Of a stretch of DNA of 64,000 nucleotides, positions 31,264-59,896 are shown piece after piece. Source of the stretch: Salinisphaera sp. (GTDB taxonomy: Bacteria > Pseudomonadota > Gammaproteobacteria > Nevskiales > Salinisphaeraceae). Under the pieces are notes generated by a model. It was not told where the DNA came from. It worked only from the letters and a program-made list of their open reading frames with translations, and made no database searches. Made by a program: the position numbers and the translations under genes. The stretch lies in assembly GCA_027858915.1 (NCBI GenBank), contig JAQIBT010000127.1:1-64000 (forward strand). Reading direction: 5' to 3'. The first letter of the stretch is position 1. Each line of letters opens with the position of its first letter.

Positions 31264-33099
31264 ATGTGTGGAATTGTTGGAGCCAGTGCGCAGCGCAACG
31301 TCGAGCCGATCCTCATGGAGGGCCTGCGTCGGCTTGAGTATCGAGGCTATGATTCGGCGGGGGTTGCCCTGCTGAACAACGGTCGGCTGGAACGCACGCG
31401 TGCGGTGGGCAAGGTGCAGGCCCTGGCCGATCGGCTGGAAAGCGAACAGAACGGTGCGGTCGACGGCCGTCTGGGTATCGCCCATACGCGCTGGGCGACC
31501 CACGGCGGGGTGACTGAGGGCAACGCCCATCCCCATCTGTCGTCTGAACGTGTGGCGGTGGTGCATAACGGCATCATCGAGAATCACGAACCGCTGCGTC
31601 GGCGCCTGCAGGACGCGGGCTATAGCTTTGTATCGGAAACCGATACCGAGGTGGTCGCGCATCTGATCGATAGCTATCTGGACGACGCCGACGACCTGGC
31701 CGGTGCCGTGCGCCTGGCGGCGGCTGAACTGCACGGCGCCTACGCGCTGGCCGTGATCTGTCGTGACAATCCGGAAATGCTGGTTGCAACCCGCAGCGGC
31801 TCGCCGCTGGTGTTGGGCGTGGGCATCGGCGAGCATTTCGTGGCCTCCGACGTTGCCGCGCTGCTGCCGGTCACGCGTCGCTTCGTTTATCTCGAAGAGG
31901 GCGATATGGTCGTGCTTGATCCGCACGGTTTTGTCGTCACCGATCTCGCCGGTGTGCCGGTCGAGCGCGAAGTCAAGGAATCCGGGCTGAGCATCGATGC
32001 GACCGAAAAAGGCATCTATCGGCATTTCATGCTCAAGGAAATCTACGAGCAGCCGCAGGCGCTGGTCGATACCTGGCAGGGACGTCTTTCAGACGATGGC
32101 GTGCTGGCCTCCAGCATCGGCCCTGGTGCAGAAGCGCTGCTGGCAAAGGTCGAAGCCATTCATATCGTGGCCTGTGGCACCAGCCATCACGCGGGTCTGG
32201 TGGCCCGTTACTGGATCGAGGCACAGGCGCGTATTCCCTGCAACGTCGAGCTGGCCAGCGAGTATCGATATCGCGATCCCGTGGTGCCGAAGAACTGTCT
32301 GTTCATCACCCTCAGCCAGTCAGGAGAAACGGCCGATACCCTGGCCGCGCTGCGCTATGCCAAGAGCCTAGGTGACCACGGTTATCTCGGCACGCTTGCC
32401 ATCTGTAACAAGCCGGAAAGCTCGCTTACCCGTGAATCCGATCTGGTGATGATGACCCGTGCAGGCCCCGAGATCGGCGTTGCCTCGACTAAGGCGTTTA
32501 CCACTCAGCTCATGTGCCTGCTGCTGTTGTCGGGCATGCTGGCGCGCGACGAGTCGCGCAGCGCGCGGCTGGCCGCCGATATCCGGGGGGTCGAAGCCGC
32601 AGTGGTCAGCGTGCTGTCGCTGGACGAGGCCATCCGGCATCTGGCCGAGCAATTTGTCGATAAGCACCACGCTCTGTTCCTGGGGCGTGGGCCGATGTAC
32701 CCCATTGCCATGGAAGGCGCGCTCAAGCTCAAGGAGATTTCCTATCTCCACGCCGAGGCCTATGCGGCAGGCGAGCTCAAGCACGGCCCGCTGGCGCTGG
32801 TCGACGAAAGCATGCCGGTGATTGCCGTTGCACCTACCGACGAGTGGTTGGAGAAGGTCAAATCCAACCTGCAGGAAGTACGCGCGCGCGGCGGCGAACT
32901 GTATGTGTTCGCCGACGAGAACTCCGGGCTGGACAGCGGGCCGGGCATCACCGTGCTCGACATGCCGCACGTACCGGACGCGCTGGCACCGATCGCCTAC
33001 ACCATTCCGCTGCAGCTGCTGGCCTATCATGTCGCGGTCGCCAAGGGCACCGATGTGGATCAGCCCCGTAACCTAGCGAAATCGGTCACGGTGGAGTAG
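31264..33099 (+). CDS. glmS: Glutamine-fructose-6-phosphate aminotransferase
   Basis: Makes glucosamine-6-phosphate from fructose-6-phosphate and glutamine; 611 residues. The N-terminal nucleophile cysteine is in MCGIVGAS, followed by the glutaminase domain and two SIS domains ([34 protein letters not shown]). The 3' end encodes the conserved [13 protein letters not shown], whose DNA is the recognition site of Tn7 TnsD in other bacteria. A transposon end begins 24 bases past the stop. Confidence 0.98.
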
Positions 33100-33122: not shown

Positions 33123-33190
33123 TGTAGCCGGGTAATAGTTATGTGAACTGTGAATTAGTTACGTGAACTCGGTAATAGTTGTGTGAACTG
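33123..33190 (+). repeat. Tn7-like transposon end: TGTAGCCG followed by three contiguous 20-bp repeats
   Basis: The terminal octamer TGTAGCCG (33123-33130) agrees in 6 of 8 bases with the Tn7 terminus TGTGGGCG. It is followed without gaps by GGTAATAGTTATGTGAACTG (33131-33150), TGAATTAGTTACGTGAACTC (33151-33170) and GGTAATAGTTGTGTGAACTG (33171-33190). Eight terminal bases followed by adjoining transposase-binding repeats is the Tn7 end layout, where TnsB binds. The site after glmS makes the assignment strong. No matching opposite end was recognised in the window. Confidence 0.85.
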
Positions 33191-33549
33191 CTAAATACAT
33201 CGAGATACCATGTAACGGCATATGCAACTCTCGAACTAGGAAGCTCGATCGACCGGTTAGTAAAACGGTCCGGGACTGAAGCGAACAATCCGGCCCCAAA
33301 CTTCGTTGCGGGGCCGACCGCGCCATACTGGAGCGCCGGGCACCTTTTGAATAAGGTGCTCATCTTGGAGGGATGCCTGATTGGCTAATGTTAGTGGTAC
33401 TTCGACGTCGGGAATGCCGCAGCTTAGGTCAGGTGCCGGCCAGAAGCGGTCATTAAACGCCTGGCATTAACGGCAGCCCGTAGCGTTGTCCGCTGCGCGG
33501 ACGTCCTAAATCTTGAAATAGAGCCACAGGAACAACCTATCCGGAGTAG
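33191..33549. other. Non-coding stretch inside the transposon end
   Basis: No gene is supported in these 359 bases. Two hairpins are visible: CGGCCCC (33291-33297) with GGGGCCG (33310-33316), and GCACCTT (33340-33346) with AAGGTGC (33353-33359). Neither is followed by a T run. They may insulate the element from glmS transcription or end the convergent KAP-type gene. Confidence 0.4.
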
Positions 33550-36500
33550 TTACTTGCGCCTTCTATTCACCTTGATTCTTGATCCCCTGACGACGTAGCT
33601 TTTAACGATGTGGTGCGTTTTGAGGATATCGAGCAGCGATCGATCGGCGGCAGTATCGGGAATCTCGACCTTATGCCGGCCAACTGACGTTAGCTTGGGA
33701 TAGTCGGCGCCCATCGAGCCGAGAATGGTGAATAAGTCCTCGCGCTCGAGCGATGGAAGGTGTGGCTCAAGCAAGGCCATCACATGCGGAGCTCCCGCAC
33801 CGCCGAGTGCCAATTGCTTTACGACCTCCAGTTCCAGCGAGAGGCTTTGTTGCGCCGCGACTCGCGCGATTTGACTCATGCCGGCGCGGTCAGCCCTGGG
33901 GACGTAGTCGCGAGCCTGCCTTGCGATCTCCATCTTGATCGCCGGTTCGACTTTGTCGCTCTGTAGCAGCCTCGCGAGATCGTCTCGCACGAGATCCGGG
34001 CTCATGTATTCCTTGAATTCGCGCGACTCTCGAATGTATGCCTCGCGGGTCGACCAGTCCATCTCGCCGAGGTGGGCGTAGGTTGCAGCCTCATCCTTGA
34101 TCAGGTTGTACTTCAGAAGTAGCGCAAAGAGCTCACCACTTTCAGCCGCGATCTCGCCTGTTTCTAGGGGGTGGGCCAGGTTCAGGCTTGCAACCAGCTT
34201 TGTGCGGAGCTTTGCGGAGAGAAGCTCTTCATCCGCCGACAGGATCGCTCGCGCGAGTCCTGCCCTCGCTTCGTCGTCGGCCTTGTCGGCTCCTTTGATG
34301 GTGCCTGCGGAGGTCAAAACGTTGGCCAGGCTCGCGTCAACTGCTTCCAAAATACTGACGTAGCGCTCCACATTCCCGAAAGTCGCAGGGAAGCGTTCGT
34401 TCTCTGCCAGTCGAGGCCAGGCCTCTGACGAGACCTCGGCGAGGTCAGCGACGACACAACCCGGCGATGCGTGCGCAATGACGTCCCCGAGTCGGGCCGA
34501 ATCATGCTCGAGCACATCCTCGATCACGGAAATAAAGCGCTCGGCGCCCTCTACGGTCGGCGACACTCCCTCCACCGCTGATATATATGCACTCAGATTA
34601 TCGAGCGTGTACTCATAGACGGACTGATGAGCGGCCTGAACAATATCCAGCGCCAAGCTCGTCCTAGTGCCAATGGCCACCTCGATATTCTCGCGCCTGA
34701 TTTCGTAAAGGCTGCGATCGACGAACGCGCGGCGCATGTTCTCTGTCAACGGCGCCAGAAGCGGTAGCCTAATGCTGGCTTGAGCGAAGAGATCGCCAAT
34801 GCGTTCCGCCTGAGCGAGTGGGACATCGTCGGACGTCAGCGTCGCAAGTTCGGCGTATCGGTCAGCCAAATAAGATGAGACAGCGGGACACGTTTGATAC
34901 TTGTCGTGACCCAAGTGTTGGAGAGCAGCGTCGACGAGTTCGAGCTGCAGAGCGTCATCCACCTCCGCCCGGCTTACGAGATAGACCAGCACTCCCGAGT
35001 AAAACGGCGTCAGCCGTGCAATCAGCCTTGCCTGCTGAGTACCGCCATTAAGATAGGCCTGCATGAAGCTTGTTTGGCGGTCGCCGAATCCGACCAAGGA
35101 ACGAATCATGATCTCCGCCGCCGCGATATTGGTCGACAGCAGATGGTCCAAGAGATCGATGTTGTAAAGCGACGGCTCTTTGAGGGCGTCCTCGCCACAT
35201 TCTTGAACGACGTCATCGACATCACCCGGGTCCAGTTTGAACTGCGCGTCCATCAGGTTGCGCTCGACGTGATGGATGATGAAGTTGGTTGCCGCCGAGC
35301 TTACGCGGTCCCCGTGAAAGGTGGATGTATAGAGCGTGAAGTTACTGTTGATATAGCCGGCACGCACCAGTTCGTACGCCAGCCCGGATTTGAGAAGTTT
35401 GCTGGCAGTCGCGGCGAATGACTGGTCAATATCGCCGTGCTCAACAAGAAAGTCAGATCGCTCGATAAGATCCTCCAGATCGGCGCCACGCAGGAACTTG
35501 AGATCCGCGCTTATATCCTGAAGCCGCTCATTTATATGTTGGCGATCCGCGTCATCCCAACTCGCGGCGTCCAATGGATCAGAAAGCTCAGCAGCAAGGT
35601 GCGCTTTGGTGTACCGAAGGGCTGGAAGTCCGTTGATCATCCAATCCAAGGTTGGATTGCCATCGGCCGAGGTGAACTTTTCCCAAAACTCTGCACTCAG
35701 AAGATCATCCGGCTTCAACTGTTGGCTAGCGAACACATACTGCCCATTCGGGTTGATATGAGTTGCAGCCTGTACTGTCCTCTGCACATGATCGTGGAGA
35801 CGCTTGCCAAGATGCCTGCTACGTGTCGCAGCGCCATCAATTTGTGACAGACGCCTCTGCGTTGCGAGTCTCTCACGCTGCAACCGTTGTGTGTTCTGAC
35901 TAATCAAATTACGGCTGACTTCGTAAAGCGTATCCAAATTGCTTTTGCGCAAACGTATCGCCTCGAAGTCTGTGAGATGCGTGCTCTTGTAGAGCATCAT
36001 CGCGAACAGGTCAGTTTCGTTTAGCTTCAGCGGGTTGCTATCACTCAAGATGATGCGATCACGGAATACAATGAACTCATTGCAGACGTTTTTGAGCAGC
36101 CGCATTTCCGGCACATACCCAGCAGCGAGATCAAGCAGCTTCTTGTCGACATGGTTTTCGAACCGATCGAGAAGCTGCGCGGCGAGGTTGCGAGCGCTTC
36201 GATGAGTGATGAATGGAACCACTGGAATGACGAGATCAAAGAACTTCGTCCGGTTCGCACGTACGGTCTCGGATTGGGCGGGGTCCTCGCTCGCGTCTAG
36301 GTCCTGATCGGGCCTAAGATCGCTCTTTTGCAGGCCGATTCGGTCGAATATGCTGTCCTTGATGGCGTAGATGAAGCGGATTGGTCGGTCGATCTGCGGT
36401 GAGGTATTGAGGAGAGTGTTGAGCGAGCGGAGCGTCTCGAAGATGTGCGAATCGTTGAAGCGGTCGATGTCCTCGAAGATAACGATGTCACGTTTCGACA

Positions 36501-37290
36501 CATCGAAGAAATAGACGATCTCATCGAGATACTGATCGAAATACGACACGGACTTGTTGTCTAACGTAACCGTGGTAGAGCCTGCGGAGAACTGCGTGAT
36601 GCTTAGTTGGCCGCGGAAAAAGTATCGAGCCCCCAAACAGAGCACTGCTGCCAGCGTCCAGACCAGCGGATGAATCAAGAGGCCGAAGTCGATAAGGGGT
36701 GAGAAAGCTGAGGCAATTTGTTTGGACCAACCCATCAGCAAGAAGATAATCGCGACGGGCAGTCCAAGCAGAAGCGCTATCGCAAGCTCGCGCCGCCACT
36801 TAAAGCGACCAAGGCGATGGAAACGGGAGCCTGGCGTTTTATGCGGTTCCTCGCGGTAGAGTAGCTGCTTGACTATTTCTTGTTGGATACGGTTCGTCGG
36901 CGTCATCGCCTGTTTTGGGACCGACTCGTCGACGTCTGATGTCTCAATCGGGGCAAGCGTCGATAGCGAGAGCTCGACGACACGATCTTCATGGCAGCGG
37001 ATCACCTCTCGCAGGATGCTGCTTTTGCCAACGCCGTAACTACCGGACAGCGCGATGTTCCATATCTTTTTATCACGGAGCGCGGCTGCGATCGCCTTAA
37101 CGTATTTGCCGTGCTCTAATTCTTTATAAGTAGGTGTAAGCGGGACTAGGTCCCACCGGTCTTCGCTGGCAAGCTCGCTCGAACTATCGTTCTTGCGACG
37201 CTTGGCTGTACAGCATTTCCATATCCACCGGCTTGGTCGGCTACGCATTACTGTGCGCCCAGTTCCTATGACGGTGGCTGGCAATGGCAT
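33550..37290 (-). CDS. Large KAP/YobI-like P-loop NTPase with two membrane helices inside the ATPase domain
   Basis: Protein of 1246 residues. Numbered from the ATG at 37290 (AAGAGA site nearby; an in-frame GTG lies 12 codons upstream), Walker A is GSYGVGKSS (83-91). Two hydrophobic helices follow (about 169-188 and 202-224), then Walker B IVIFEDIDRF (269-278). Insertion of a membrane hairpin between Walker A and B is the hallmark of KAP-family NTPases; the YPLTPTYKELEHGKYVKAI-like start resembles YobI-type proteins. The remaining roughly 900 residues are helical repeats without a recognised domain. It is the first gene inside the Tn7-like end and has less GC-rich codon use than glmS, suggesting transferred cargo, perhaps anti-phage. 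Function is not proven. Confidence 0.8.
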   Translation of the reverse strand: MPLPATVIGTGRTVMRSRPSRWIWKCCTAKRRKNDSSSELASEDRWDLVPLTPTYKELEHGKYVKAIAAALRDKKIWNIALSGSYGVGKSSILREVIRCHEDRVVELSLSTLAPIETSDVDESVPKQAMTPTNRIQQEIVKQLLYREEPHKTPGSRFHRLGRFKWRRELAIALLLGLPVAIIFLLMGWSKQIASAFSPLIDFGLLIHPLVWTLAAVLCLGARYFFRGQLSITQFSAGSTTVTLDNKSVSYFDQYLDEIVYFFDVSKRDIVIFEDIDRFNDSHIFETLRSLNTLLNTSPQIDRPIRFIYAIKDSIFDRIGLQKSDLRPDQDLDASEDPAQSETVRANRTKFFDLVIPVVPFITHRSARNLAAQLLDRFENHVDKKLLDLAAGYVPEMRLLKNVCNEFIVFRDRIILSDSNPLKLNETDLFAMMLYKSTHLTDFEAIRLRKSNLDTLYEVSRNLISQNTQRLQRERLATQRRLSQIDGAATRSRHLGKRLHDHVQRTVQAATHINPNGQYVFASQQLKPDDLLSAEFWEKFTSADGNPTLDWMINGLPALRYTKAHLAAELSDPLDAASWDDADRQHINERLQDISADLKFLRGADLEDLIERSDFLVEHGDIDQSFAATASKLLKSGLAYELVRAGYINSNFTLYTSTFHGDRVSSAATNFIIHHVERNLMDAQFKLDPGDVDDVVQECGEDALKEPSLYNIDLLDHLLSTNIAAAEIMIRSLVGFGDRQTSFMQAYLNGGTQQARLIARLTPFYSGVLVYLVSRAEVDDALQLELVDAALQHLGHDKYQTCPAVSSYLADRYAELATLTSDDVPLAQAERIGDLFAQASIRLPLLAPLTENMRRAFVDRSLYEIRRENIEVAIGTRTSLALDIVQAAHQSVYEYTLDNLSAYISAVEGVSPTVEGAERFISVIEDVLEHDSARLGDVIAHASPGCVVADLAEVSSEAWPRLAENERFPATFGNVERYVSILEAVDASLANVLTSAGTIKGADKADDEARAGLARAILSADEELLSAKLRTKLVASLNLAHPLETGEIAAESGELFALLLKYNLIKDEAATYAHLGEMDWSTREAYIRESREFKEYMSPDLVRDDLARLLQSDKVEPAIKMEIARQARDYVPRADRAGMSQIARVAAQQSLSLELEVVKQLALGGAGAPHVMALLEPHLPSLEREDLFTILGSMGADYPKLTSVGRHKVEIPDTAADRSLLDILKTHHIVKSYVVRGSRIKVNRRRK

Positions 37291-37823
37291 GAAATATTCT
37301 CTTATCGGATTTCTTTTTGCCTTCACTACGCGAATTCGTACGGGCGTTCAAGCAATGAACGAAATGGGGTCTGCCCTACTTAGTGTTCATCCATAAACTC
37401 TTAAGTGTATGATTTTGCTTATAATACCGGACGTTAACGAATTTAGATTTTCGATCGCCAATATTTTGGCTAAATTTCCAACTATATGATTTTATTGCAC
37501 ATTTATTGGGTCAGCTAATATTATAAACGGCACAATTGCAAAATATCAGTCAAAATGTGCAATCATTTATTGCCGATTAATTTAACGGTATCAATGAGAT
37601 ACGAGTTTCTGGATGGACACTACTTAACAGCGGTGATGGATCTTGTTCTTGGGCCCGGCGGGGTCATGAGATTTAGATGAATTCGGCTATAGCCGACGCG
37701 CACAACATAGAATGAATGACGCTCAAGAGGGCGACTACGCTGGCGAATGTCCGCTTTGGGTCGCTACCTGATCACGAGCGATCGGCCGGATATTGACGAT
37801 TCCGTTCAACAAAAGGAATCGTC
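37291..37823. other. AT-rich intergenic region between divergent NTPase and recombinase genes
   Basis: No gene is supported in these 533 bases, which are strikingly AT-rich compared with the surroundings. They contain the 11-base inverted arms ATTGCACATTT (37494-37504) and AAATGTGCAAT (37553-37563), a candidate operator or recombination site. A perfect 9-base hairpin, GACGATTCC (37795-37803) with GGAATCGTC (37815-37823), abuts the recombinase ATG. The AT-rich block is the likely promoter region of the large NTPase gene. Confidence 0.5.
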
Positions 37824-38567: not shown

Positions 38568-40064
38568 TCATCGTCGCCAGAATTCAGGCGTGAATATGAC
38601 GAGCAGCGTAAAAATCTCCAGCCGCCCGCCAATCATCGCCACAATGAGAAACCATTTCGCCGCTCCCGGTAGCGGACTGAAGTTCGATGCCGCAGCGCCT
38701 AATGCGGGCCCCGCGTTGTTGATACAGGCGGCGACGGTCGAGAATGCTGTCAAACCGTTCAGCCCGATCGCCATGAGGATCAGCACCATGACCGCATAAC
38801 CCGCAACATAAAGGAAGAAGAACGCCCAGACGCCGCGCAGAATAGACTCTGACAGCACACGGTTTTCCAGCTTCACTGCGAACGCAGCGTTCGGGTGCAC
38901 GATTGCCCTCAGTTCTCGCCAGGTCTGTTTCAGGATCAACACCAGCCGAACGATCTTGATCCCGCCGGAGGTCGATCCCGCACAACCGCCCAAACAAGCG
39001 AGCAGCATCAACAGGATCGGAATAAAACTCGGCCACTGCGAGAAATTTGCGCTGCCGAAGCCGGTATCGGTCATGATCGATACCACCTGAAAAGTGCCCT
39101 GGATGAGCGCGTCCTTGATCGAGCCATAGGTCCCGTGCAGGTAGAGCGTCGCTGCCACGAGCAAACTGGCGCCTCCCATGATCAGCGCATAAAAGCGCAG
39201 CTCGATATTACGCAGGTACGGCAGCAGACTGCCGTTGCGCCAGCAGATGAAGTGCAGCGAGAAGCTCGCACCGGACACGAACATGAAAAAGATGGATGCA
39301 ATCAGAATGGGATTGCTGTGGAAATGCGCCATGCTGTCGTCGTAGTTGGCGAAACCGCCTGTCGCAAGCGTGCCGAAGGCAAGGGTGATCGCATCGAACG
39401 GGTTCATGCCAAGCAGCCAATAAGTGCCCGCGCACGCCAGGGTAATCGTGGTGTAGGTCCACCACAGTGCCGAGGCGGTCTTCTTGATGCGAGGGGCCAG
39501 CTTGTCGTCTTTGATCGGGCCGGGGGTTTCGGCCTTGACGAGCTGCATGCCGCCGGTGCCGAGCATCGGCAGTATGGCGACGGCGAGCACGATGATGCCC
39601 ATGCCGCCAATCCAGTGCAGCCACTCGCGCCAGAAGAGAATCGCATGCGGCAAGGTATCGAGGCCGACAATCACGGTGGCGCCGGTGGTGGTCAGCCCTG
39701 AAACCGATTCGAATGCTGCGTCTGTTAAGGCCAGGGCGGGACGCGTCGCCAGCAGCAGCGGTAGCGCGCCGAACAGGCCCAGCACGGTCCAGAACAGGCT
39801 GACGATCAGAAAACCGTCGCGAATCTTCATGTCCCGCGACACGCGGCGCACCGGGAACCACAACGCCACGCCGGTCGAGAACGCGATGAGGAACGATACG
39901 CCGAACGCCTCCATCCCGCCGTCGCCATAGATCAGGCCGATGACCACGGGTATGAGCATCGTCGCCGAAAAGAAGATCAGCAATACACCCAGAACACGCT
40001 GCACGACCGCCCAAGGATGATCGACAATCAGAAAACGCTGGCTTTTCACCACGGCTTTTCGCAA
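38568..40064 (-). CDS. trkH: Trk-type potassium uptake membrane protein
   Basis: Potassium-translocating subunit of 498 residues in the inner membrane, with four pore repeats. The selectivity-filter segments are LTTTGATV, LATGGFAN, MTDTGFGSA and NNAGPALGAA. The frame opens at a TTG (40064) without a clear ribosome site; GTG codons at 40052 and 40049 are equally possible starts. It usually works with the cytoplasmic NAD-binding TrkA, which is not in this window. It is divergent from the kdp locus, so two potassium systems share the intervening region. Confidence 0.93.
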   Translation of the reverse strand: MRKAVVKSQRFLIVDHPWAVVQRVLGVLLIFFSATMLIPVVIGLIYGDGGMEAFGVSFLIAFSTGVALWFPVRRVSRDMKIRDGFLIVSLFWTVLGLFGALPLLLATRPALALTDAAFESVSGLTTTGATVIVGLDTLPHAILFWREWLHWIGGMGIIVLAVAILPMLGTGGMQLVKAETPGPIKDDKLAPRIKKTASALWWTYTTITLACAGTYWLLGMNPFDAITLAFGTLATGGFANYDDSMAHFHSNPILIASIFFMFVSGASFSLHFICWRNGSLLPYLRNIELRFYALIMGGASLLVAATLYLHGTYGSIKDALIQGTFQVVSIMTDTGFGSANFSQWPSFIPILLMLLACLGGCAGSTSGGIKIVRLVLILKQTWRELRAIVHPNAAFAVKLENRVLSESILRGVWAFFFLYVAGYAVMVLILMAIGLNGLTAFSTVAACINNAGPALGAAASNFSPLPGAAKWFLIVAMIGGRLEIFTLLVIFTPEFWRR

Positions 40065-40508: not shown

Positions 40509-42174
40509 ATGACCTGGCTATTTCCAATCACCGTGCTGGCGGTGCTGATCGGTGTGTCATGGCAGCTGGGACGGTACATGCACCGGGCCATGGCGCCGGC
40601 GGCCCCGGGCTCGATACGTAATCGCGGCGAAGCCTTTGCCGTGGCCGTGATCGGCTCGCGCGCCGCCGCGGACCAAGACTGGAAGCGCTATGCGCTTTCC
40701 ATGCTGGTGTTCAATCTCGGCTGTTCACGCTGGCCTACCTGATCTTCGTGGTCCAGGGCGGGCTGCCGCTGAATCCGGACGGCAAGACCGGGCTCTCGCC
40801 GGATCTGGCGTTCAATACGGCGGCCAGCTTCACCAGCAATACCAATCTGCAGCATTATTCGGGCGAGCAGTCGCTGTCGTATCTGACGCAGTTGACCGCC
40901 ATCATGTGGCTGCAGTTCGTATCCGCGGCCACCGGTATCGCGGCCGTCACCGCACTTTGTCGGGCGCTGGCCGGCGAACCCAAGGTCGGCAATTTCTATC
41001 GCGACCTCGCGCGGGCAACGGCTCTGATTTTGTTGCCGTTGTCGTTTCTGCTGGCGCTGGCTCTGGTGTTCCTCGGCCTGCCGATGACGTTTCAGGGCGC
41101 GGCCGTGGCGCATACGCTGGAAGGCGCGGTACAGACCATCGCACGCGGCCCGGTTGCCGCGGTGGTTGCGATCAAGCAACTCGGCACCAACGGCGGCGGC
41201 TTTTTCGGGCCCAATTCGTCACATCCGCTGGAGAACACCGTCTTCGTGTCGAACGTGCTTGAGAACATGGCGATTCGGCTGATCCCGATGGCCACCGTGT
41301 GGATGTTCGGCCGGATTACAAAGCACCGGCGTCACGCCGCTGTGGTATTCGCAGTCATGCTCGTGATGCTGGTGGCGCTGGCCGGCTTGGCCACGTTCAC
41401 CGAGCAGGCGCCCACGCGGGCGCTCGATAATCTGCCGGTGGCCACCGCGCCGAATCGGGAAGGCAAGGAACTGCGCTTCGGAGAAGCGGCCGGGCCGTTG
41501 TGGGCGGTATCCACGACCGCGACCTCCAACGGTTCGGTGAACGCGATGCACGATCGCTCAATCCGCTGACCGGGCTCATGCCGATGATCGGCATGTGGCT
41601 CAACGTCATTTTCGGCGGGGTCGGCGTCGGGTTCATCAACATGTTCGTGTTCATTGTGGTGACGGTGTTTCTCGCCGGCCTGATGGTCGGGCGCACGCCG
41701 GAATATCTGAACCGCAAGGTCGAAGCCCGGGAGATGAAGCTGGCCACCCTGACCCTGCTCGTGCATCCGCTGTGCATCGTCGGCGGTGCGGCACTGTTCG
41801 TGCTCACCGGCTGGGGGCCGACCACGGTCAACAACTCGTGCAGTCACGGCCTGTCGGAAATCATCTACGAGTTCTCGTCGGCCGCGGCCAACAACGGCTC
41901 GGGTTTCGAAGGTCTGGGCGACAACGCCGCCCCCTGGAACATCGCGACCGGCATGGTGATGCTGTTGGCTCGTTTTATTCCGATCATCGTGCCGCTGGCC
42001 ATCGCGGCCCCGCTGGCCGGCAAGCGTCATGTTCCGGATAGCACGGGCACTTTTCGCGTGGACACGCCGCTGTTCGGCGTACTGCTTCTGGCCACGGTCG
42101 TAATCGTCGGCGCATTGCTTTTCATGCCGCTCGGCGTTCTGGGGCCGATCGCTGAATACCTGGGTGGACAATGA
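40509..42174 (+). pseudogene. kdpA: Potassium-transporting ATPase subunit A, two frameshifts
   Basis: Potassium-channel-like subunit of the KdpFABC pump, about 555 residues if repaired. The first 72 codons read MTWLFPITVLAVLIGVSWQL to FNLG. A one-base loss near 40720 moves the frame to LFTLAYLIFVVQGGLPLNPDG. A second one-base loss near 41553 follows SNGSVNAMHD and moves to SLNPLTGLMPMIGMWL. All family segments are otherwise present (TNGGGFFGPNSSHP, GRTPEYLNRKVEAREMK, NNGSGFEGL). Adding two bases restores a length divisible by three. As it stands the product is truncated after 77 residues. Recent decay or base-call error are both possible. Confidence 0.88.
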
Positions 42175-44283
42175 CCATGAGTAATTCTCGGAACACAAAC
42201 AAGCGTAAGGGCCAGGCCGCCTCACAGGCCCTGATCGACCCCAGTACCCTGCCCAGCACCTTGCTGCGCGGTGTGACCATGCTCGATCCGCGGGTGATGG
42301 TTCGCAATCCGGTGATGTTCGTCACCGAGATCGGTGCGGTGCTCACCACGCTCTATCTCATCGCGGCATTGCTGGGCGATGCGAGTTCAGCCGGCAGTAC
42401 GGCGTATCGGGTGGTGCTGGCGTTCATGCTCTGGGCCACGGTCTATCTGGCCAATATCGCCGAGGCGCTGGCCGAAGCGCGCGGCAAGGCCCAGGCACAG
42501 AATCTGCGCGGCGCGCGCCAGGATCTGCAGGCGCGAAGGCTGCCGGCGAACGGCGGTTATCGCGACGCGGCGCAGGCCGAGGAGGCGCCCGCTGCGGCGC
42601 TGCAGCCGGGCGATCGGATCGTGGTGGACGCCGGCGAGCTGATCGCCGCCGACGGTGATGTGGTCGAAGGCATCGCCTCGGTCGACGAATCGGCCATCAC
42701 TGGCGAATCGGCACCGGTTATCCGCGAAGCCGGCGGCGATCGGTCGGCGGTGACCGGCGGTGACCGGCGGCACCCGCGTGCTTTCGGACTGGATCGTGGT
42801 CGAAGTCACCACCAAGCCGGGCGAATCTTTCCTCGATCGCATGATTTCGATGGTCGAAGGCGCGGATCGCCAGAAAACGCCCAATGAGATCACACTCACC
42901 ATCGTGCTGGCCGGGTTCACGCTCATGTTTCTGATCGTGTGCGTGGGCTTGTATCCGCTGGCGGGGTATTTCAACGCCACGCTCGATATCCCGACGCTGG
43001 TGGCGCTGCTGGTCTGTCTCATTCCGACGACCATTGGGGCCTTGCTCGCCGCCATCGGTATCGCCGGCATGGCCCGGCTCGGCGCACACAAGGTGCTGGC
43101 AATGAGCGGGCGCGCGGTCGAGGCGGCGGGGGATGCCGATGTGCTGCTGCTGGACAAGACCGGCACGATCACTTTCGGCAACCGACAGGCCGATGCGTTC
43201 ATACCGGCCGAAGGTGTCAAGGAATCGGAACTGGCGGAGCTGGCCGAGCTGGCCGAGCTGGCCGACGAAACCCCGGAAGGCCGGAGCATCGTCGAGCTGG
43301 CACGTAGCCGCTACGACCTCCCCGAACGCGAGGCCGCCGATGTCGAAGGCGAAGTAATCGCATTCTCGGCAAACACCCGGATGAGCGGCCTGGACTTGGC
43401 TGATCGGCGTATCCGCAAAGGCGCGGCCAGCCAGATCACCGCGTGGGTGAAGGAAAACGGGGGCTCGGTACCGGGCACGCTGGATCGCGTGGTGTACCGC
43501 ATATCGGAATCCGGCGGCACGCCGCTGGTGGTGGCGGACGCACAGCGGGTACTCGGGGTGATTCATCTCAAGGACATCGTCAAACCCGAGATCAAGGAAC
43601 GTTTTGCCGAACTGCGCGAAATGGGCGTGACCACGGTCATGGTCACCGGCGACAACGCCACCACGGCCGCAGCGATCGCGGCCGAGGCCGGCGTCGACGA
43701 TTTTCTTGCCGAGGCCACGCCGGAGGCCAAGCTCGATCTCATTCGGGACTATCAGGCCAAGGGCCATCTCGTAGCCATGACCGGCGACGGCACGAACGAT
43801 GCGCCGGCGCTGGCGCAGGCCGATGTCGCGGTCGCCATGAACACCGGCACCCAGGCCGCCAAGGAAGCCGGCAACATGATCGATCTGGATTCGAGCCCGA
43901 CCAAACTGATCAGCGTGGTCCAGGTCGGCAAGCAGATGCTGATGACACGCGGCTCGCTGACCACGTTCTCGATCGCCAACGATGTCGCCAAATACTTCGC
44001 CATTCTGCCGGCGATCTTTGTGGTGGCGCTGCCCCAGATCGCGGCACTCAATGTCATCCATCTGCATACGCCGCGTTCGGCCATCCTCTCGGCCGTCATC
44101 TTTAATGCGCTGGTGATACCGGGGTTGATCCCGATCGCGCTCAAGGGCGTGGCTTATCGCGCGGTTTCCGCGGATGCCCTGTTATCGCGCAACCTCTTGA
44201 TCTACGGGCTCGGCGGGCTGGTCACGCCGTTCGTGGGGATCAAGATCATCGACCTGATACTGACCGCCTGTGGTCTGGGTTAG
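42171..44283 (+). pseudogene. kdpB: Potassium-transporting ATPase subunit B, frameshift by 10-bp duplication
   Basis: P-type ATPase subunit of the Kdp pump, 700 residues if repaired. The ATG overlaps the kdpA stop (ATGA). The N-terminal helices and the TGES motif (SAITGESAPVIREAGG) are read correctly. A perfect tandem duplication of TGACCGGCGG (42751-42760 and 42761-42770) then shifts the frame. Removing one copy joins DRSAVTGG to [12 protein letters not shown] and gives an uninterrupted frame with the phosphorylation motif DKTGTITFG and [17 protein letters not shown]. The current product would lack the phosphorylation and nucleotide domains. Confidence 0.9.
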
Positions 44284-44296
44284 AAAGGAGTTCGTC

Positions 44297-44870
44297 ATGA
44301 TTGAAGAACTGATGGCCACAAGCCGATTGATGCTCGCCAGCCTAATCGTCTGCAGTGTGATCTATCCGGCCGCCCTCTGGGCCATCGCGCAGGGCGCGGT
44401 GCCCGGCCGGGCCAACGCCAGCCTGGTCATGAATGATGGTCAGGTCGTGGGCTCCAGCCAGATCGCGCAGGCGTTCAGCCAGCCGCGTTATTTCTGGCCG
44501 CGTCCCTCGGCCGTGGATTACGCGGCCAACGCCGCCGGCGGCTCCAACTGGTCGCCCACCAACGACAAGATCACGGCGCGGGCGCGCGCTCATCGCACCG
44601 CTCGGCGCCACGCCGGCTGACCCGGTGCCGGCAGATCTGGTGACCGCCTCTGGTTCCGGCCTCGACCCGGATATTTCGGTAGCCGCGGCACACTACCAGG
44701 CCGATCGCGTAGCCAAGGCCCGCGGGATCGTGCTTAGCGACGTGGAGGCCCTGATCGCGCGCGCTACCCGCGAGCGTTGGACCGTACCCCTGGGCGGTGC
44801 GCCAGTGGTCAATGTGCTGGCCCTGAATATGGCGCTCGACCAGGCCGGATCGAGCGGCGCAACACGGTAG
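44297..44870 (+). pseudogene. kdpC: Potassium-transporting ATPase subunit C, frameshifted
   Basis: Accessory subunit of the Kdp pump, about 191 residues if repaired. The N-terminal helix and [21 protein letters not shown], then [18 protein letters not shown], read in one frame. The conserved C-terminal half ([34 protein letters not shown]) is one base out of phase. The lesion lies in the run of alternating G and C at 44573-44590, as a one-base gain or a two-base loss. It starts 13 bases after kdpB with an AAAGGAG site and ends 9 bases before kdpD. Confidence 0.88.
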
Positions 44871-44879
44871 ACTGCGGCC

Positions 44880-47555
44880 ATGTCGTCCCCGACTTCCGAT
44901 CAACGTCCGAATCCCGATGCGCTGCTCGAGGCCACGCGCGAAGCGCACGACGAATCGGGTCGGGGGCGGCTCAAGATCTTTCTCGGCGCCGCGCCGGGCG
45001 TCGGCAAGACGTATGAAATGCTGACCGAAGCCGCGGCGCTGGCGCGCTCGGGTGTGCGCGTGCTGGCCGGCCTGGTCGAAACCCACGGCCGGCGCGAAAC
45101 CGAAGCCTTGCTGCGCGGCATCCCCCTGGTGCCGCGGCGGCGGCTTCGTTATCGGGGTCGGCATTTCGAGGAACTCGATCTCGATGCGGTATTGCGTGCG
45201 GCGCCGGACCTGGCGCTGATCGACGAACTGGCGCACAGCAATATCCCGGGCAGCCGCCACGAAAAACGCTGGCAGGACATCGAGGAACTGCTGAATGCCG
45301 GTATCGATGTATTCACGACGCTCAACATCCAGCATCTGGCCTCGCTCAACGATGTGGTGGCCCAGATCAGCCGAGTGCGCGTGCGTGAGACCGTGCCCGA
45401 CAGCGTGCTCGAGGCAGCCGATAGCATCGAGATAGTGGATCTGCCGCCGGACGAACTGATCCAGCGTCTGCATGAAGGCAAGGTCTATGTGCCCGATCAG
45501 GCCGCACGCGCGGTCGAACATTTCTTTTCCCGAGGCAATCTGGCGGCGCTGCGGGAAATCGCGCTGCGAGCGGCGGCCGAGCGGGTGGATGCCGATGTAA
45601 GAAATCACCTGCGCGCCCGCGCGGAAGCAGGTATCTGGCCAACCCAGGAGCGCCTGCTCGTGGTGGTCGGCGAAGGGCCGGCCGCAGAATCCATGGTGCG
45701 GCTGGGCAAGCGGCTGGCCGAGCGCCGGCAGGCCTCATGGATCGCCGCGCATGTCAGACGCGGCACCGCTGCCGCCGAGCAAGCCAAAGGGGTGGACGAT
45801 GCATTGCGTCTCGCCGAGAGCCTGGGTGGCGAAGTCGCCACCATCTCGGGCGTGGACCTGGTGGCCGAGATCAAGGCCTTTGCCCGCAACCAGAACGTGA
45901 CCGAGATCCTGGTCGGGCGCTCGCAGCGGCCGCTGCGATGGTTCGCGTTTCGCCGCTCACTGGCCGGCACGCTGCTGCGTGAAGCCAACGAGTTCACGGT
46001 GACCCTGGCGCCGCGGCCCGAGGGCGCGTCAGCCAAGCGCGGCGCCGTGATGCGCAAACCGACCTCGGTGCGATGGCTCGATGCCGCGGATATCGGCTGG
46101 GTGGCGGCCACCAGCGCGGTTTCGGCGGCGCTCGCATGGCCGCTCTCGCTGGTGGTGGATACCGGTTCGTTGTCGCTGATTTTCGTGTGTTCGGTATTGC
46201 TGGTGGCGGTACGCCGGGGCATTGGCGCAGCGGTCGCGGCGAGCCTGGTTTGTTTTCTGATCTTCAATTTCCTGTTCACCGATCCGCGGCTCACGCTGAC
46301 GGTCTACAGCACCCACGACATCCTGACGCTGGTATTTTTCTTGATCGTCTCGCTGATCGCCGGCAGTCAGGCGGCGCGCATACGCACGCAGATGACCCTG
46401 ATCCGCACCGCGAGCGAGCGGCATGCGCGGCTCTACGATTTCTCGCGCCGGATCGCCGGGGCCGTAGGTCCGGTGGATCTGGCCTGGACGATCACCGAAT
46501 ATCTGGAAACCGCGCTCGGACTACAGAGTCTGGTGCTTTACCCGGATGCCGACGGCCGACTGGCCCACGTCGCGGGTGACGGCGGCAGCGAAGGGCTGGT
46601 TGACGTGGATTACATCGCCGCCCGCTGGGTGTACGAGCACAATATGCCGGCCGGGCGCGGCACGGGCACGCTGCCGCGATCCCGCTGGTTTTTCGTGCCG
46701 TTACGCGGGAGCGACGAAATGCTGGCCGTCGTCGGGGTGGCCTGGACGGATCGAAAGCAACGCCTGGATGTCGAAGAACAGCGCCTGCTGTTCGCAGTGC
46801 GCGATCAGGCAGCGGTGGCGCTCGGCCGTTCCCGACTCGCCGCCGAGATCGAATCGGCCCAGTTCGCACAGGAAACCGCGCGTCTGCGTGCGGCGCTGTT
46901 GTCATCGGTATCGCATGATCTGCGTACGCCGCTGTCCTCGATCATCGGCAGCACGGCGCTGCTGCGCGATCGATTCGATCAGCTGGACGCCGAGGAACGG
47001 CTGGAATTGCTGGACGGCACGATCGACGAAGCCACCCGGCTTGATCGCTTCGTGCAGAACCTGCTGGACATGACGCGCGTCGGTTACGGCGCACTCATGC
47101 CCGAGCTCAAACCCTGTCCGATCCGCCCGGAAGTCGAGGCCGCGTGGCTGTCGCTCGGCGCTCCGGTGAGCCAGAACCTCAAGTTCGATATCGCCTACAA
47201 TGCACGCGTCGTGCTGGCCGATGCCACGCTGCTGCGGCGGGTCCTGGCCAACCTGCTCGACAACGCGGCAAAGTATGCGCCGGCCGCAAGCGAAATCGTC
47301 ATCGAAACCCGGGCTGCGGACGATGAAGTCACGATCGCGATCTGCGATCCCGGGCCCGGCATTCCCGCGGCCGAACAATCGCGTGTCTTTGATATGTTCT
47401 ATCGCGTGGAACAGGCGGATCGCAGCGCGCCGGGCACCGGGCTGGGACTGGCGATCTGCAAGGAGTTGACCGAGATCATGGGGGGACATATTCGCGCCGT
47501 GTCGCCGGCCGTCGGCCCCGGTACACGCATCGAGGTCAGCTTGCCATCGCCATAA
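44880..47555 (+). CDS. kdpD: Sensor histidine kinase KdpD
   Basis: Osmotic and potassium-responsive histidine kinase of 891 residues. In order: the KdpD domain with Walker A GAAPGVGKT (36-44) and DELAHSN; a universal-stress-protein-like domain (LLVVVGEGPAAESMVRLGKR); four membrane helices (around 400-500); a GAF-like domain; the phospho-acceptor His679 in SSVSHDLRTPLSSIIGS; and the ATPase domain (NLLDNAAKYAP, DPGPGIP, GTGLGLAICKEL). It is uninterrupted, unlike the pump genes before it. Its TAA overlaps the codon where kdpE should start. Confidence 0.95.
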   Translation: MSSPTSDQRPNPDALLEATREAHDESGRGRLKIFLGAAPGVGKTYEMLTEAAALARSGVRVLAGLVETHGRRETEALLRGIPLVPRRRLRYRGRHFEELDLDAVLRAAPDLALIDELAHSNIPGSRHEKRWQDIEELLNAGIDVFTTLNIQHLASLNDVVAQISRVRVRETVPDSVLEAADSIEIVDLPPDELIQRLHEGKVYVPDQAARAVEHFFSRGNLAALREIALRAAAERVDADVRNHLRARAEAGIWPTQERLLVVVGEGPAAESMVRLGKRLAERRQASWIAAHVRRGTAAAEQAKGVDDALRLAESLGGEVATISGVDLVAEIKAFARNQNVTEILVGRSQRPLRWFAFRRSLAGTLLREANEFTVTLAPRPEGASAKRGAVMRKPTSVRWLDAADIGWVAATSAVSAALAWPLSLVVDTGSLSLIFVCSVLLVAVRRGIGAAVAASLVCFLIFNFLFTDPRLTLTVYSTHDILTLVFFLIVSLIAGSQAARIRTQMTLIRTASERHARLYDFSRRIAGAVGPVDLAWTITEYLETALGLQSLVLYPDADGRLAHVAGDGGSEGLVDVDYIAARWVYEHNMPAGRGTGTLPRSRWFFVPLRGSDEMLAVVGVAWTDRKQRLDVEEQRLLFAVRDQAAVALGRSRLAAEIESAQFAQETARLRAALLSSVSHDLRTPLSSIIGSTALLRDRFDQLDAEERLELLDGTIDEATRLDRFVQNLLDMTRVGYGALMPELKPCPIRPEVEAAWLSLGAPVSQNLKFDIAYNARVVLADATLLRRVLANLLDNAAKYAPAASEIVIETRAADDEVTIAICDPGPGIPAAEQSRVFDMFYRVEQADRSAPGTGLGLAICKELTEIMGGHIRAVSPAVGPGTRIEVSLPSP

Positions 47556-48235
47556 AAGCACTCATCGTCGACGATGACCCCGGCATTCGCCGGTTTTTGC
47601 GCATCGGCCTCAAGACCGAGGGGTATGATGTGTTCGAAGCGACCTCCGGCAACGAGGCGCTGCGCGCGGTTTCGGCTCGTCGTCCGGACATCATCGTACT
47701 CGACCTCGGCTTGCCCGATGTCGACGGTCAGGAACTCCTGCCGGCCATTCGCGGCGTGAGCGACGCCGTACTGATCGTATTATCCGTCCGGGACGCCCAG
47801 CAAGAGAAAATCGCTGCGCTGGACGCAGGCGCCGACGATTACCTGACCAAACCGTTCGATTTCGCGGAACTGGCAGCGCGGCTGCGTGCCAATCGGCGCA
47901 AAGGTCTCAGCACGCCCAATCCGGCTATCCTTGAGTGCGGCGATCTAGCGCTCGACGATGCCGCTCACCGCGTGACGTGGAACGGTTCAAACGTTCGCTT
48001 GACGCCGAAAGAGTTCGATCTGCTTAAAGAGCTCATGCGCTATCCGGACAAGGTCGTATCCCACGCTCATCTTTTGGAGAAGCTCTGGGGCCACGTTCAC
48101 AGCGATGAGACCGCTTATTTGCGCGTCTATATACAACGACTGCGTCGCAAACTGATCGAGGTTGGGGCGAGCAAATATCTGATTGATAGCGAACCCGCGG
48201 TTGGATATCGCTTGAATACGTCGGGGCACCTGTAG
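47552..48235 (+). CDS. kdpE: Response regulator KdpE lacking a standard start codon
   Basis: OmpR-type activator of 227 residues. Family similarity starts at IKALIVDDDPGIRRFL, and the codon at the expected start (47552) is ATA, overlapping the kdpD stop as ATAA. A single G-to-A change from ATGA would produce this while leaving kdpD a stop codon. No ATG, GTG or TTG lies just upstream in frame; the next TTG (47597) would remove the acidic pocket. The receiver aspartate (VLDLGLPDVDG, about residue 51), the KPF lysine and the winged-helix domain (LTPKEFDLLKELMRYPDKVV) are intact. Either it starts at a rare ATA or it is a start-codon pseudogene. Confidence 0.8.
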   Translation: MKALIVDDDPGIRRFLRIGLKTEGYDVFEATSGNEALRAVSARRPDIIVLDLGLPDVDGQELLPAIRGVSDAVLIVLSVRDAQQEKIAALDAGADDYLTKPFDFAELAARLRANRRKGLSTPNPAILECGDLALDDAAHRVTWNGSNVRLTPKEFDLLKELMRYPDKVVSHAHLLEKLWGHVHSDETAYLRVYIQRLRRKLIEVGASKYLIDSEPAVGYRLNTSGHL

Positions 48236-48269: not shown

Positions 48270-51200
48270 TCAGCCCCGCGCGCCTTCTGACAACACCTCT
48301 TGCACGCTATGGTAAAGTGCGGCCTTGAAGGCATCGTCTTGAGCGTGAAGTCTATAAAGCTCGAGCTCTTCTCTCCTTCTGCGCAGCATCACGTCTCTCA
48401 TAATCTTTTCGAACGCAAGGTTCCGGGCGTATGGATCAGGGTTCTCCCTGAATTTTTCCTCGAAATCAGGATGTGCCTTAACGCTGTCCACAATGTTCAG
48501 AAACTTCACGCGCTGTTCTTCGGGCGTTGCGCTCCATCCTTGAAACCAACGCTCGTTGAAGTTTCGGATGATTTCCTCTAACGGATCTTCTTGAACCTCG
48601 CCGTCTCGGTATCCACGTGGATTAGTGTTCTGCGGTTCTACTTCTGACTCGTCCGCGTCTAGCTCGATCGTATGGTTCAGCTTTGTTCTGCCGAGCCCAT
48701 AAGAGGAAAGGTCCACTGACTCAAGCAGTTCGTCGAGCGCATCCTGGTTCGGGTCCTGGATTTTCAATTTCGGGACGAGAAACTTGAGGAACCAGAACAG
48801 CTTCTCCCAGGCGACCACTTCGAAGGAGATGATCGAGGCCATCTGGCCATAGATCTTCACGAACTGCTTGGCCTTGATTTTGTAGTCGATCTTGTCGTTA
48901 TCTTCGAGTTCCAGCTCTTGATTGAAGCGGTCAGCCGCCATGTCAATCAAGGGGCTGAGCTTCTGAGCGTCTTCCCCATCAAAAAAACGTGTGCAGAACG
49001 TCTCAACCTCAGACCACTCATAGACGCCGGCATCGTCCAACGTTGCTTTTAGCTCATGAAGCACGTTCACGTCAGTCGCTTCCGATAGCGAGGTGACGGT
49101 AAAGAAGGGATCGAAGGCAGCCTTGATATCGTCGGTCGAGTTGAAGAAATCGAGGACGAAAATATCTTCGGTGCGCTTGCCCAGCTTTGGAGCCGACCGG
49201 TTCAAGCGTGAGAGCGCTTGTACGGCGAAGACCGACTGCAACTTCTTATCGATATACATCGCGCAGAGCTTCGGCTGATCGAAGCCAGTCAGATATTTGT
49301 TCGCCACAACCAGCAGCCGGAACTCGTCCTTATCGAACGACTTGCGAGTCTTTTCCTCCGCGAAGCCGTTCATTTCGGCCTCAGTATATTTGATCCCGTC
49401 GACCTCTTTCTCGCCTGAAAACGCGATCAGCGCCTTGAACGGATGCCCGCGGCGTTCCAACTCGGCCTGGACTGCCTTGTAGTAACGGATCGCCACTTCG
49501 ATGTTCTGGGTGACGATCATCCCCTTGCCCTTGCCGCGCAGCTTCTTCGTGTTCACCACGTTGTCGACGAAATCCTCCACCATGATCTCAGTCTTGGTGT
49601 TGATCGTCTGCTGGCTGCGCTCGACATAGGCGCGAAGTTTCTTCTGCGCCTTGGCCGTGTCGAATAGGGGATTGTCCGCGATCGACTTCTGGATCTCGTA
49701 ATAGCTCTTATAGGTCGTATAGTTGGCCAGCACGTCGAGAATGAAGCCCTCCTCGATCGCCTGCTTCATGCTGTAAAGATGGAAAGGCTTGAACCGCCCG
49801 TCCGACTGCTGCGTACCGAACTTTTCCAGCGTGGTGTTCTTCGGTGTCGCCGTGAAGGCGAAGTAGGAGGCATTACCCCGCATCTTTCGCGCCTGCATCG
49901 CCGCTAGGATCTTGTCCTGTGGGTCGTCCTCGTCCGGGTCATCGCCGCCGCCCATCGCCTTGTTCATCGTGTCGTGGGCAAGGCCGCTCTGGCCACTGTG
50001 GGCTTCGTCGATGATCACGGCGAATCGCTTGTCGCTCATATCCGCGATGCCATCGATAATCCATGGGAACTTCTGGATCGTCGTGATGATGATCTTCTTG
50101 CCGTGCTCCAGCGCCGCTTTCAGATCCGCGGACCGCATCGCCGGGGCGACGATGTTCTTCACCTCCGAAAAGTCGCGGATGTTGTCGCGTAACTGCTTGT
50201 CCAGCAGGCGGCGGTCCGTCACCAAGATCACGCTATCGAACAGGGGCGCATCCAATGCCCGGGCGCCGGGCAAATCCAACCGCTCCGGATAGGTCTCGAT
50301 CAGCTGATAGGCGGTCCAAGTGATGCTGTTCGACTTGCCCGACCCGGCAGAGTGCTGGATCAGATAGCTACGCCCTACGCCATGTCTAGCGGCGTGACCC
50401 AGAAGCTGTCGTACGACGTCTAGTTGCTGGTAGCGCGGGAAGATCAAGGTCTTTTTCGCCAGCGGATCGGTCTTTTTGCCCTCGAGCAGAACGAAGTGCT
50501 GAATGATGCCGGCGAGGCTTTCAGGCTGAAAAACCTCTTCCCACAGATAGGCGGTTTTATGGCCATCGGGGTTGGGCGGGTTCCCAGCGCCTTCATTGTG
50601 GCCCTTATTGAACGGCAGAAACCAGGTCGAGCCGCCCGACAGCTTCGTTGCCATCCAGACCTCATCCGTGTCGGCGGTCATGTGGACCAACGTGCGCCCG
50701 AACTGCATCAGAGGTTGCGACACATCCCGTTCCCGATATTGCTTCTGGCCGTGGTAACGAGCGGTCTGGTGCGTCCAGGCGTTCTTGAGCTCCAGCGTGA
50801 CGATCGGTAAACCGTTCAGAAACAGCACCATGTCCACGGATTCATTCGGGTTCGCCTGCGAATGGCGAACCTGCCGGGTCACGCTCCAGATATTGGCGGC
50901 GAAGTTGTCGTGAACCTTCTGCGCGGAACTGGCCAAGGGCGCGGGATACATCAGGGTGAAATGTGCGTCGTCGACGGGCAGTCCCTTTTTCAGGACATGC
51001 AGCACGCCCTTACGCTTCACCAGCTTGTCGAACTGGCCGAGGATCTTGGCCCGCCAGTCGGCCGGGTTGCGGCTCTCGAGCTTCTCGAGCGCTTTACCCT
51101 GCGTGGCCTCGAGGAAATCCCAGAACAGCGCGGTGTCGAGCGCGAGGGCAGCATCAAAGTCAGCGGCCCTGCCGATGCGGTAAGGACCAGTCGGCGTGGA

Positions 51201-51296: not shown

Positions 51297-51305
51297 CACT
51301 ACCCC

Positions 51306-57156: not shown

Positions 57157-57389
57157 TGTGACCAAGAATGCATAAAAACATATGCACAAACAAGTATTGA
57201 AGATGCGATCAACCATGTGCCCGACTCTGGCGCACAGCTTGGCCAAGGTGACCGCCGACGATGAGGGGGCCTCATGTGCCTATGGGATGTGAGACTGAGG
57301 TCGTGTATTTCGCTGGTATCTGCCGACTGGGGTATCGGCAGACGTGGCCGATACGTATGCCGCGCGCCCGTACGCGGGGGCGTTCAGCT

Positions 57390-59460: not shown

Positions 59461-59896
59461 AATATTTCCGCCAGATTATCTATAACTGTTTGAAAATTAG
59501 TGAGTATAGGGCAGGTACTTTGCGCCATCGAAGCCGGATTGCGACGGAATGTCGTCTATAGGTTGCGGCGCCCACCGCAATCCGCTAGCGTCGCTAAAAC
59601 CCGCTTACGGTATCCAGAATGCGCATCACAGGGGTGGGGTCTCCCACCCTTCATATGTCTAGGGTGTAGCGATACATTGCTTTGATGGCGTTGGCGTTTC
59701 CAAGCATCGCGCGAGGTAATGCCACGACAGCGTGACATTAAAAACGCTTGCAGTAGGCAAACTGCGAGCGCTCTTCAGCTCGGACTGGCTATCTTCTAAC
59801 TAGGTTTGCGCGGTTTCTCGGCCGGGTCGAGAGGCGGTTCTCCCTGCGCATGACTTCAGGGGCAGATAGCTGCTTGCCATGCGCCAGGAGGCGTCT
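59461..59896. other. Region upstream of tnsA, likely holding a transposon end
   Basis: No gene is supported in these 436 bases. A perfect hairpin, GGGTGGG (59632-59638) with CCCACCC (59643-59649), may be a terminator. The ATG at 59879 is followed by AGGAGG and a second ATG at 59897. In Tn7-like elements this position next to tnsA carries transposase-binding repeats, but I could not find repeats as clear as those beside glmS. Confidence 0.4.

Follow-up and report, generated by a model that had tools for sequence, protein, structure and literature searches.

A gene carried by a Tn7-like transposon in a 64,000-nucleotide stretch of Salinisphaera sp. (contig JAQIBT010000127.1, positions 1 to 64,000; hereafter the window) is intact and belongs to a distant Tmn branch, as judged from sequence comparison, and its product is probably an anti-phage membrane nucleoside triphosphatase (NTPase). 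Family alignments and structure models show a P-loop NTPase with a predicted membrane hairpin between the Walker A and Walker B motifs and an alpha-solenoid arm, the whole being co-linear with Tmn. A single-protein immune switch of the Tmn/YobI kind is the best explanation of the gene, with a probability of about 0.6 in our estimate. The coordinates of the gene, its domains and its neighbours are collected in Table 1.

Architecture of the protein and its homology to Tmn

The initial annotation had given the gene the borders 33550-37290 and 1246 residues. An in-frame ATG at 37290, 36 bases inside the GTG start, does yield such a product; the open frame itself extends to 37326 and 1258 amino acids (aa). 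Residues 1 to approximately 45-55 have no counterpart in most of the seven relatives compared, so the true start is unsure.

The protein matched the Pfam YobI-ATPase domain (PF20693) with an E-value of 4e-111 and a score of 372.5 bits, above the curated cut-off of 27. The YobI/KAP P-loop domain is split by two hydrophobic helices and is followed by an arm of ~740 residues that is mostly helical. Membrane helices were predicted by Kyte-Doolittle hydropathy alone, which placed hydrophobic stretches at residues ~178-204 and 210-234, both between Walker A and Walker B. In the family alignment, Walker A, the ED pair of Walker B and R289 were invariant (70/70 rows), and two separate hydrophobic 19-mers were present in 69 of the 70 rows, which bears out the KAP/YobI architecture, with Walker motifs flanking two helices, that had first been read from the window. 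The information per column was 2.5-3.2 bits in the NTPase, 1.7 bits in the hairpin within it and 1.4-2.4 bits in the arm.

AlphaFold2 models of residues 60-1258 had a mean predicted local distance difference test score (pLDDT) of 84.9 and a predicted template modelling score (pTM) of 0.60; the arm alone (residues 521-1258) reached 91.2 and 0.65, respectively, and was modelled as a long alpha-solenoid that follows a small mixed domain and closes with a short beta end. The NTPase model resembled ORC/Cdc6 (Z 13.1, 5.3 Å over 246 residues). The defence NTPases RdrA (Z 11.8), BrxC (11.2), Avs3 (10.4) and Avs4 (8.7) were also matched, and TnsC was among the structural lookalikes. The arm retrieved general HEAT/ARM-type solenoids, with a best Z of 7.1. 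A sequence search for a solved structure of a relative found none.

The C-terminal region had initially been taken to match no known domain, and the gene to be the best candidate for an undescribed system. Both claims gave way to homology with Tmn, whose E. coli members block phages. PMC11846954 describes Tmn as an NTPase of the KAP family that has two transmembrane domains and inhibits T2, P1, phiVi and phiX in E. coli; its mechanism is described as unexplored, and it is itself inhibited by a phage protein. The same statements on Tmn recur in a 2025 meeting report (PMC12908700).

The PADLOC Tmn profile (PDLC02220) matched the window protein with an E-value of 3.8e-49 and 165 bits, and the match was confined to profile positions 24-473 out of 1273, about a third of the profile. 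Nearly the whole profile was matched by two proteins from E. coli plasmids, with 2059 and 2225 bits; the annotation of one of these reads 'anti-phage transmembrane ATPase'. An NCBIfam scan of the window protein returned no family; the branch is thus poorly covered by annotation. For the profile-profile comparison, the window family (55 rows) was set against five Tmn rows, of which the two plasmid proteins were covered by the PADLOC scan, the other three being 27-84% identical to the first. The window family aligned with Tmn over 1121 columns. The arms were then compared alone, to exclude that the NTPase had dragged the arm into the alignment, and residues 479-1258 aligned co-linearly with Tmn 420-1273 (score 86.1, E-value 2.4e-9, 713 columns), which rejects the idea of an arm without relatives; reversed Tmn arms used as controls scored 14.6-19.8, and NTPase against arm 12.6-15.6. 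On this sequence evidence, the window protein is a member of the Tmn family in the broad sense, outside canonical Tmn.

Distribution of the branch and the restriction operons of relatives

The YobI-ATPase domain was found in 1/61 genomes, the window's own, and in none of the 60 relatives from the genus, family and order, 13 of which are of the same genus. A scan of the phylum returned 7/398 genomes including its own, two of the other six matching over nearly full length. The plasmid search gave 629 records, of which eight covered 80% or more of the query, with identities of 29-54%; viral contigs gave at least three loci from 600 candidate stretches, and phage genome records gave no match to the window protein. 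The scan of species genomes gave 110 loci, the best 80 of which are mostly from Actinomycetota, plus Pseudomonas, Acidithiobacillus, Marinomonas and others, and the genome-locus counts below use these 80. Gene borders in the loci were called by a simple longest-frame script, and the 88 loci with an assigned Tmn-like gene include near-copies (L093/L094/L095; L069/L075/L076/L096; L077/L107).

In a tree built quickly from 94 rows (LG+G4; flagged for composition and for two long branches), the window protein fell in an 18-row group that mixes Actinomycetota and Pseudomonadota, with a support of 99 in the Shimodaira-Hasegawa-like approximate likelihood ratio test (SH-aLRT); the branch as a whole is mainly from these two phyla. 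The four nearest rows by tree path are actinobacterial, the best being 58% identical to the window protein, and transfer between phyla is therefore favoured. The G+C content of the gene is below that of the flanking core. Together with the absence of the domain from the 60 close relatives, these results agree with the initial view of a transferred gene.

The contexts of the window gene and its relatives include a transposon, plasmids, viral contigs and conjugation genes; many chromosomal contexts are unclassified, and many loci have surroundings without recognisable genes. In several actinobacterial loci, some genes fall in the same clusters as the conjugation-type genes of plasmid locus L016. 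Neighbours of the plasmid relatives include genes for a NACHT protein, for a KAP NTPase and for a restriction endonuclease, as well as HNH genes. On a Nocardia plasmid (L018 10082-13761), a Tmn-like protein is annotated as two adjacent genes, the NTPase part and the arm, through a split or a frameshift. A YobI-type gene of a Bacillota plasmid, which falls outside the branch of the window protein, has a gene for a DNA cytosine methyltransferase (L114 3079-4488) 0.4 kb upstream.

The gene had been called solitary, which stands for the window and for most relatives, but in 11/88 loci the Tmn-like gene lies in a type I restriction-modification (RM) operon (same strand, packed array). HsdM and HsdR were searched with local profiles seeded with the RM proteins of the window, and their genes were found beside a Tmn-like gene in 12/89 loci; in the twelfth, L085, hsdM and hsdR are on the opposite strand. 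The usual order is hsdM, hsdS, (Ymh-family gene), hsdR, (YgjP-like gene), Tmn-like gene, with the Tmn-like gene placed between hsdS and hsdR in L037 and hsdR called as two overlapping frames in L061. No HsdS was picked up in the loci by a local profile seeded with the HsdS of the window; hsdS was recognised in 9/11 operons by clustering (eight) or Pfam (L025 and L037), the gene at that place in L029 having been left unscanned and none having been called in L073. Exact 4-bp stop/start overlaps occur just upstream of the Tmn-like gene in six operons (L025, L029, L036, L037, L038 and L040).

Matches to the N6_Mtase domain numbered 91 in 50 genomes (219 Mb), and HsdM by this domain lay within 10 kb of the Tmn-like gene in 11/50 genomes, versus 0.49 expected. 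The naive P of 5e-13 treats the loci as independent and is far too small, because the loci are related. On the tree, the RM label changes seven times, by gain or loss, among the 76 rows with enough upstream sequence, and these changes may be one gain and six losses. Partner swapping, as read from protein identities, is a stronger argument for an RM link than the counts. The Tmn-like proteins of L025 and L073 are 95% identical, evenly along their length, whereas their HsdM and HsdR are 29% and 26% identical; conversely, L025 and L038 share HsdM and HsdR at 86% and 83% identity, with Tmn-like proteins at 50%. The pair has therefore been re-formed more than once.

Other RM and defence genes were also found. 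In L056, a type III Res gene ends 19 bp ahead of the start of the Tmn-like gene, and a Mod-type methylase is encoded ~3.6 kb upstream; read by eye, a type III methylase was within 10 kb in 2/40 genomes, namely L056 (in its operon) and L068 (on the other strand). The Tmn-like gene follows a type II restriction-like gene in L104 and a SIR2-like candidate defence gene in L079, and single neighbours in or next to the operons match AbiJ, Ppl and SIR2-type defence profiles. The expectation that homologues would sit near defence genes was thus realised for part of the relatives.

The operons themselves hold further genes. A Ymh-family gene (PF09509) lies between hsdS and hsdR in L025 (6130-6864), L033, L036 and L041, and may be another suicide gene of these operons; according to PMC3710099, RM operons can contain Ymh genes and some AbiJ genes. 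A YgjP-like metallopeptidase gene lies between hsdR and the Tmn-like gene in L031 (9348-10097), L036, L041 and L073. The representatives named by Pfam were HsdS in L025 and L037, Ymh in L025 and YgjP in L031 and L036, and the calls in other loci rest on clustering. In L040 (8310-9917) and L038 (8157-9917), a frame of 535-586 aa follows hsdR and overlaps the Tmn-like gene by 4 bp; the L040 frame of this class gave no Pfam hit but matches the PADLOC candidate PDC-M36A.

The Tn7-like carrier and its cargo

A Tn7-like element at glmS carries the gene as its first cargo, in agreement with the initial annotation, which had placed it first in a transposon. The end motif TGTAGCCGGG is at window 33123, 24 bp beyond the final glmS base, and the far end motif is at contig 66497, beyond the window, with three inverted repeats at contig 66359-66487. 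As a 5-bp direct duplication, CGGCC, flanks both ends, the element is 33,375 bp long. Tns genes, the glmS site, the 5-bp duplication and repeats at both ends identify it as Tn7-like. A TniB/AAA ATPase occupies the TnsC place, and a TnsD protein with a TniQ domain was identified by Pfam at the far end. Besides TnsD, the element has a second TniQ gene with a helix-turn-helix gene (window 55544-57246, minus strand), either a second target selector or a remnant, and an ISL3 transposase fragment (window 57801-58355, minus strand).

The hsdM-hsdS-hsdR genes of the window are on the same strand as, and upstream of, the Tmn-like gene. They are not of the same family as the coupled RM genes of relatives (20-28% identity), and the RM link in the window is only suggestive, the window being compatible with the link and not evidence for it. 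With window proteins as queries, TrkH was found in 0/93 loci and KdpD in 1/93, weakly, and a conserved tie to potassium transport was rejected; a conserved tie to this Tn7-like element was likewise rejected, the window's TnsA, TnsB and TniQ being found in 0/93 loci. Within the kdp cargo, kdpA and kdpB are several overlapping frames (window 40690-44283, plus strand), as if frameshifted through decay or sequencing error; the kdpA match spans only 77-344 of 548 and kdpB falls into two pieces (42171-42887 and 42760-44283), while kdpD and kdpE look whole.

Table 1. Features of the window, with the Tmn-like gene and its parts first, followed by the carrier element and its cargo.
Feature	Position	Strand	Basis or remark
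Tmn/YobI-like membrane NTPase gene	33550..37326	-	single intact frame, at most 1258 aa from GTG
YobI-ATPase domain, residues 75-464	35935..37104	-	Pfam PF20693, 372.5 bits
Walker A, residues 95-102, GSYGVGKS	37021..37044	-	70/70 rows
Walker B, residues 281-286, IVIFED	36469..36486	-	ED pair in 70/70 rows
Predicted membrane hairpin, residues 178-234	36625..36795	-	hydropathy, 69/70 rows; two long helices in model
C-terminal arm, residues 521-1258	33553..35766	-	model pLDDT 91.2; residues 479-1258 homologous to Tmn arm
glmS, insertion site	31264..33099	+	TIGR01135
glmS-proximal element end	33123..33197	+	three repeats spaced 20 bp
trkH	38568..40064	-	cargo, outside proposed system
kdp (kdpA and kdpB in pieces, kdpD, kdpE)	40690..48235	+	cargo, outside proposed system
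hsdR	48270..51299	-	type I RM
hsdS	51306..52598	-	type I RM
hsdM	52595..54988	-	type I RM
TniQ protein, second in element	55544..56827	-	
TnsA	59879..60796	+	Pfam
TnsB, 762 aa	60763..63051	+	by place between TnsA and ATPase; no Pfam hit

Proposed function, rival explanations and known systems

The immune switch is favoured because of the homology to Tmn, the invariant motifs, the resemblance of the NTPase part to defence NTPases, the patchy spread with the nearest relatives in another phylum, the RM operons, the partner swapping and the defence neighbours. The resting protein would be on the inner membrane, and its arm, taken to be the sensor because its columns hold less information than those of the NTPase, would detect either a product of the phage or a disturbance of some host process. 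The binding or hydrolysis of NTP would then change the assembly of the protein, and the hairpin or a partner would harm the membrane or halt growth, so that the phage could not multiply. Going by the relatives, branch members would often act, perhaps, as a second line behind RM, catching phages that survive restriction.

Several points weigh against this explanation. The anti-phage activity of the branch is predicted from Tmn, and membrane damage is putative even for Tmn. The arms of the window family and Tmn are only 13% identical, and the last 400 residues alone did not match the Tmn arm significantly (probability 10-18%), which makes the far end of the arm the least sure part of the homology. 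Canonical Tmn and the window branch are separate clades, five canonical or near-canonical rows and 84 rows including the window protein being on different branches, both with an SH-aLRT of 100; given this separation and the low arm identity, the trigger, and even the effector, may differ from those of Tmn. The structural matches to ORC/Cdc6, RdrA, BrxC and Avs represent common AAA+/STAND folds and show no function. Structure prediction of the C-terminal part, suggested as a check at the outset, produced a confident alpha-solenoid model but no specific structural match, none of the four Foldseek matches at an E-value of 0.001 or below being specific. Finally, 77/88 loci had no type I RM operon in the examined flank (10/88 flanks extend 6 kb or less upstream), and the window gene itself lies outside the RM operon, ~11 kb from hsdR, with trkH and kdp between.

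A tentative reading, well below the immune switch in probability, is that the branch is a portable partner of RM, a membrane guardian that fires when restriction is evaded or phage DNA modification is at work and that plugs into unrelated type I and type III operons by reading something that infections have in common and not one RM protein. In one pair of loci, Tmn-like proteins with different RM partners are evenly 95% identical, which points to the reading of such a shared consequence and not of the surface of one RM enzyme. Phages escaping Tmn in E. coli carried a substitution in the DNA-modification gene nmad5, which would fit such a trigger; nmad5 deletion left the phage sensitive to Tmn and gave no escape (PMC11846954).

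It is unlikely that the protein defends directly and non-abortively, blocking DNA entry or replication at the membrane and leaving the cell unharmed. The membrane hairpin would suit such a role; Avs-type NTPase switches of similar fold harm the cell, which counts against it. With Tmn, the growth of cultures infected at a low phage dose matched that of uninfected ones, and lysis from without was seen with one phage, observations that are compatible with either outcome (PMC11846954).

Slightly less likely again is an accessory of RM with no immunity of its own, which would work with the restriction enzyme at the membrane by holding it at the DNA entry site or controlling its activity. Operon membership and the 4-bp overlaps in relatives are what this proposal would predict, but most loci (77/88) show no type I RM operon, almost identical Tmn-like proteins are paired with RM enzymes that are just 26-29% identical, and canonical Tmn acts alone in E. 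coli (PMC11846954).

Hitchhiking is improbable. RM operons and transposons collect mobile genes, and carriage on plasmids and a transposon, as well as the toxin-antitoxin genes that adjoin canonical Tmn on plasmids, could indicate a gene that maintains its element or plasmid and is not anti-phage; however, the exact overlaps in six operons and the repeated pairing with different RM families are hard to explain on that basis, and the protein has a tested defence protein among its homologues. A housekeeping or potassium-related role at the membrane, suggested by the adjoining trkH and kdp in the window, is very improbable given the patchy spread and the near absence of TrkH and KdpD from the loci.

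The immune switch proposed here is not an undescribed kind of system; it is a variant of a known one with a seemingly unreported tie to RM. Titles and abstract openings on Tmn, KAP, YobI and RM-embedded genes, a set outside which most subscription papers fall, held no report of Tmn/YobI proteins in RM operons. The repeated entry of a large sister branch into restriction operons offers a concrete and testable clue to what Tmn-type proteins watch.

Like the window protein, Tmn is a YobI/KAP NTPase with a membrane hairpin, encoded by a single gene of ~1260 aa with a co-linear arm and also carried on mobile DNA; in contrast to the operons of the present branch, no RM gene was listed at a distance of 5 kb or less from any of three Tmn genes of E. 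coli. Avs, RdrA and BrxC share the fold of the NTPase core; these NTPases are soluble, whereas the window protein has a membrane hairpin inserted in its NTPase. The carrier resembles Tn7-like transposons with defence cargo in its glmS site, Tns genes, 5-bp duplication and RM cargo, although a word search of the main text of the survey PMC8649781 found neither Tmn nor KAP named. According to the literature, prrC is embedded in EcoprrI (PMC3874165), and PrrC and PARIS are guardians that sense RM inhibition (PMC12707154). Some Tmn-like relatives resemble PrrC in being an extra gene inside a type I RM operon. PrrC is an ABC-ATPase with a HEPN nuclease, whereas the Tmn-like protein is a P-loop NTPase with a predicted membrane hairpin, and the Tmn-like gene differs further in its one occurrence with a type III operon and in not being RM-embedded in the window. 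If the branch does act as a guardian of restriction, it would be the membrane-based counterpart to PrrC, a nuclease guardian.

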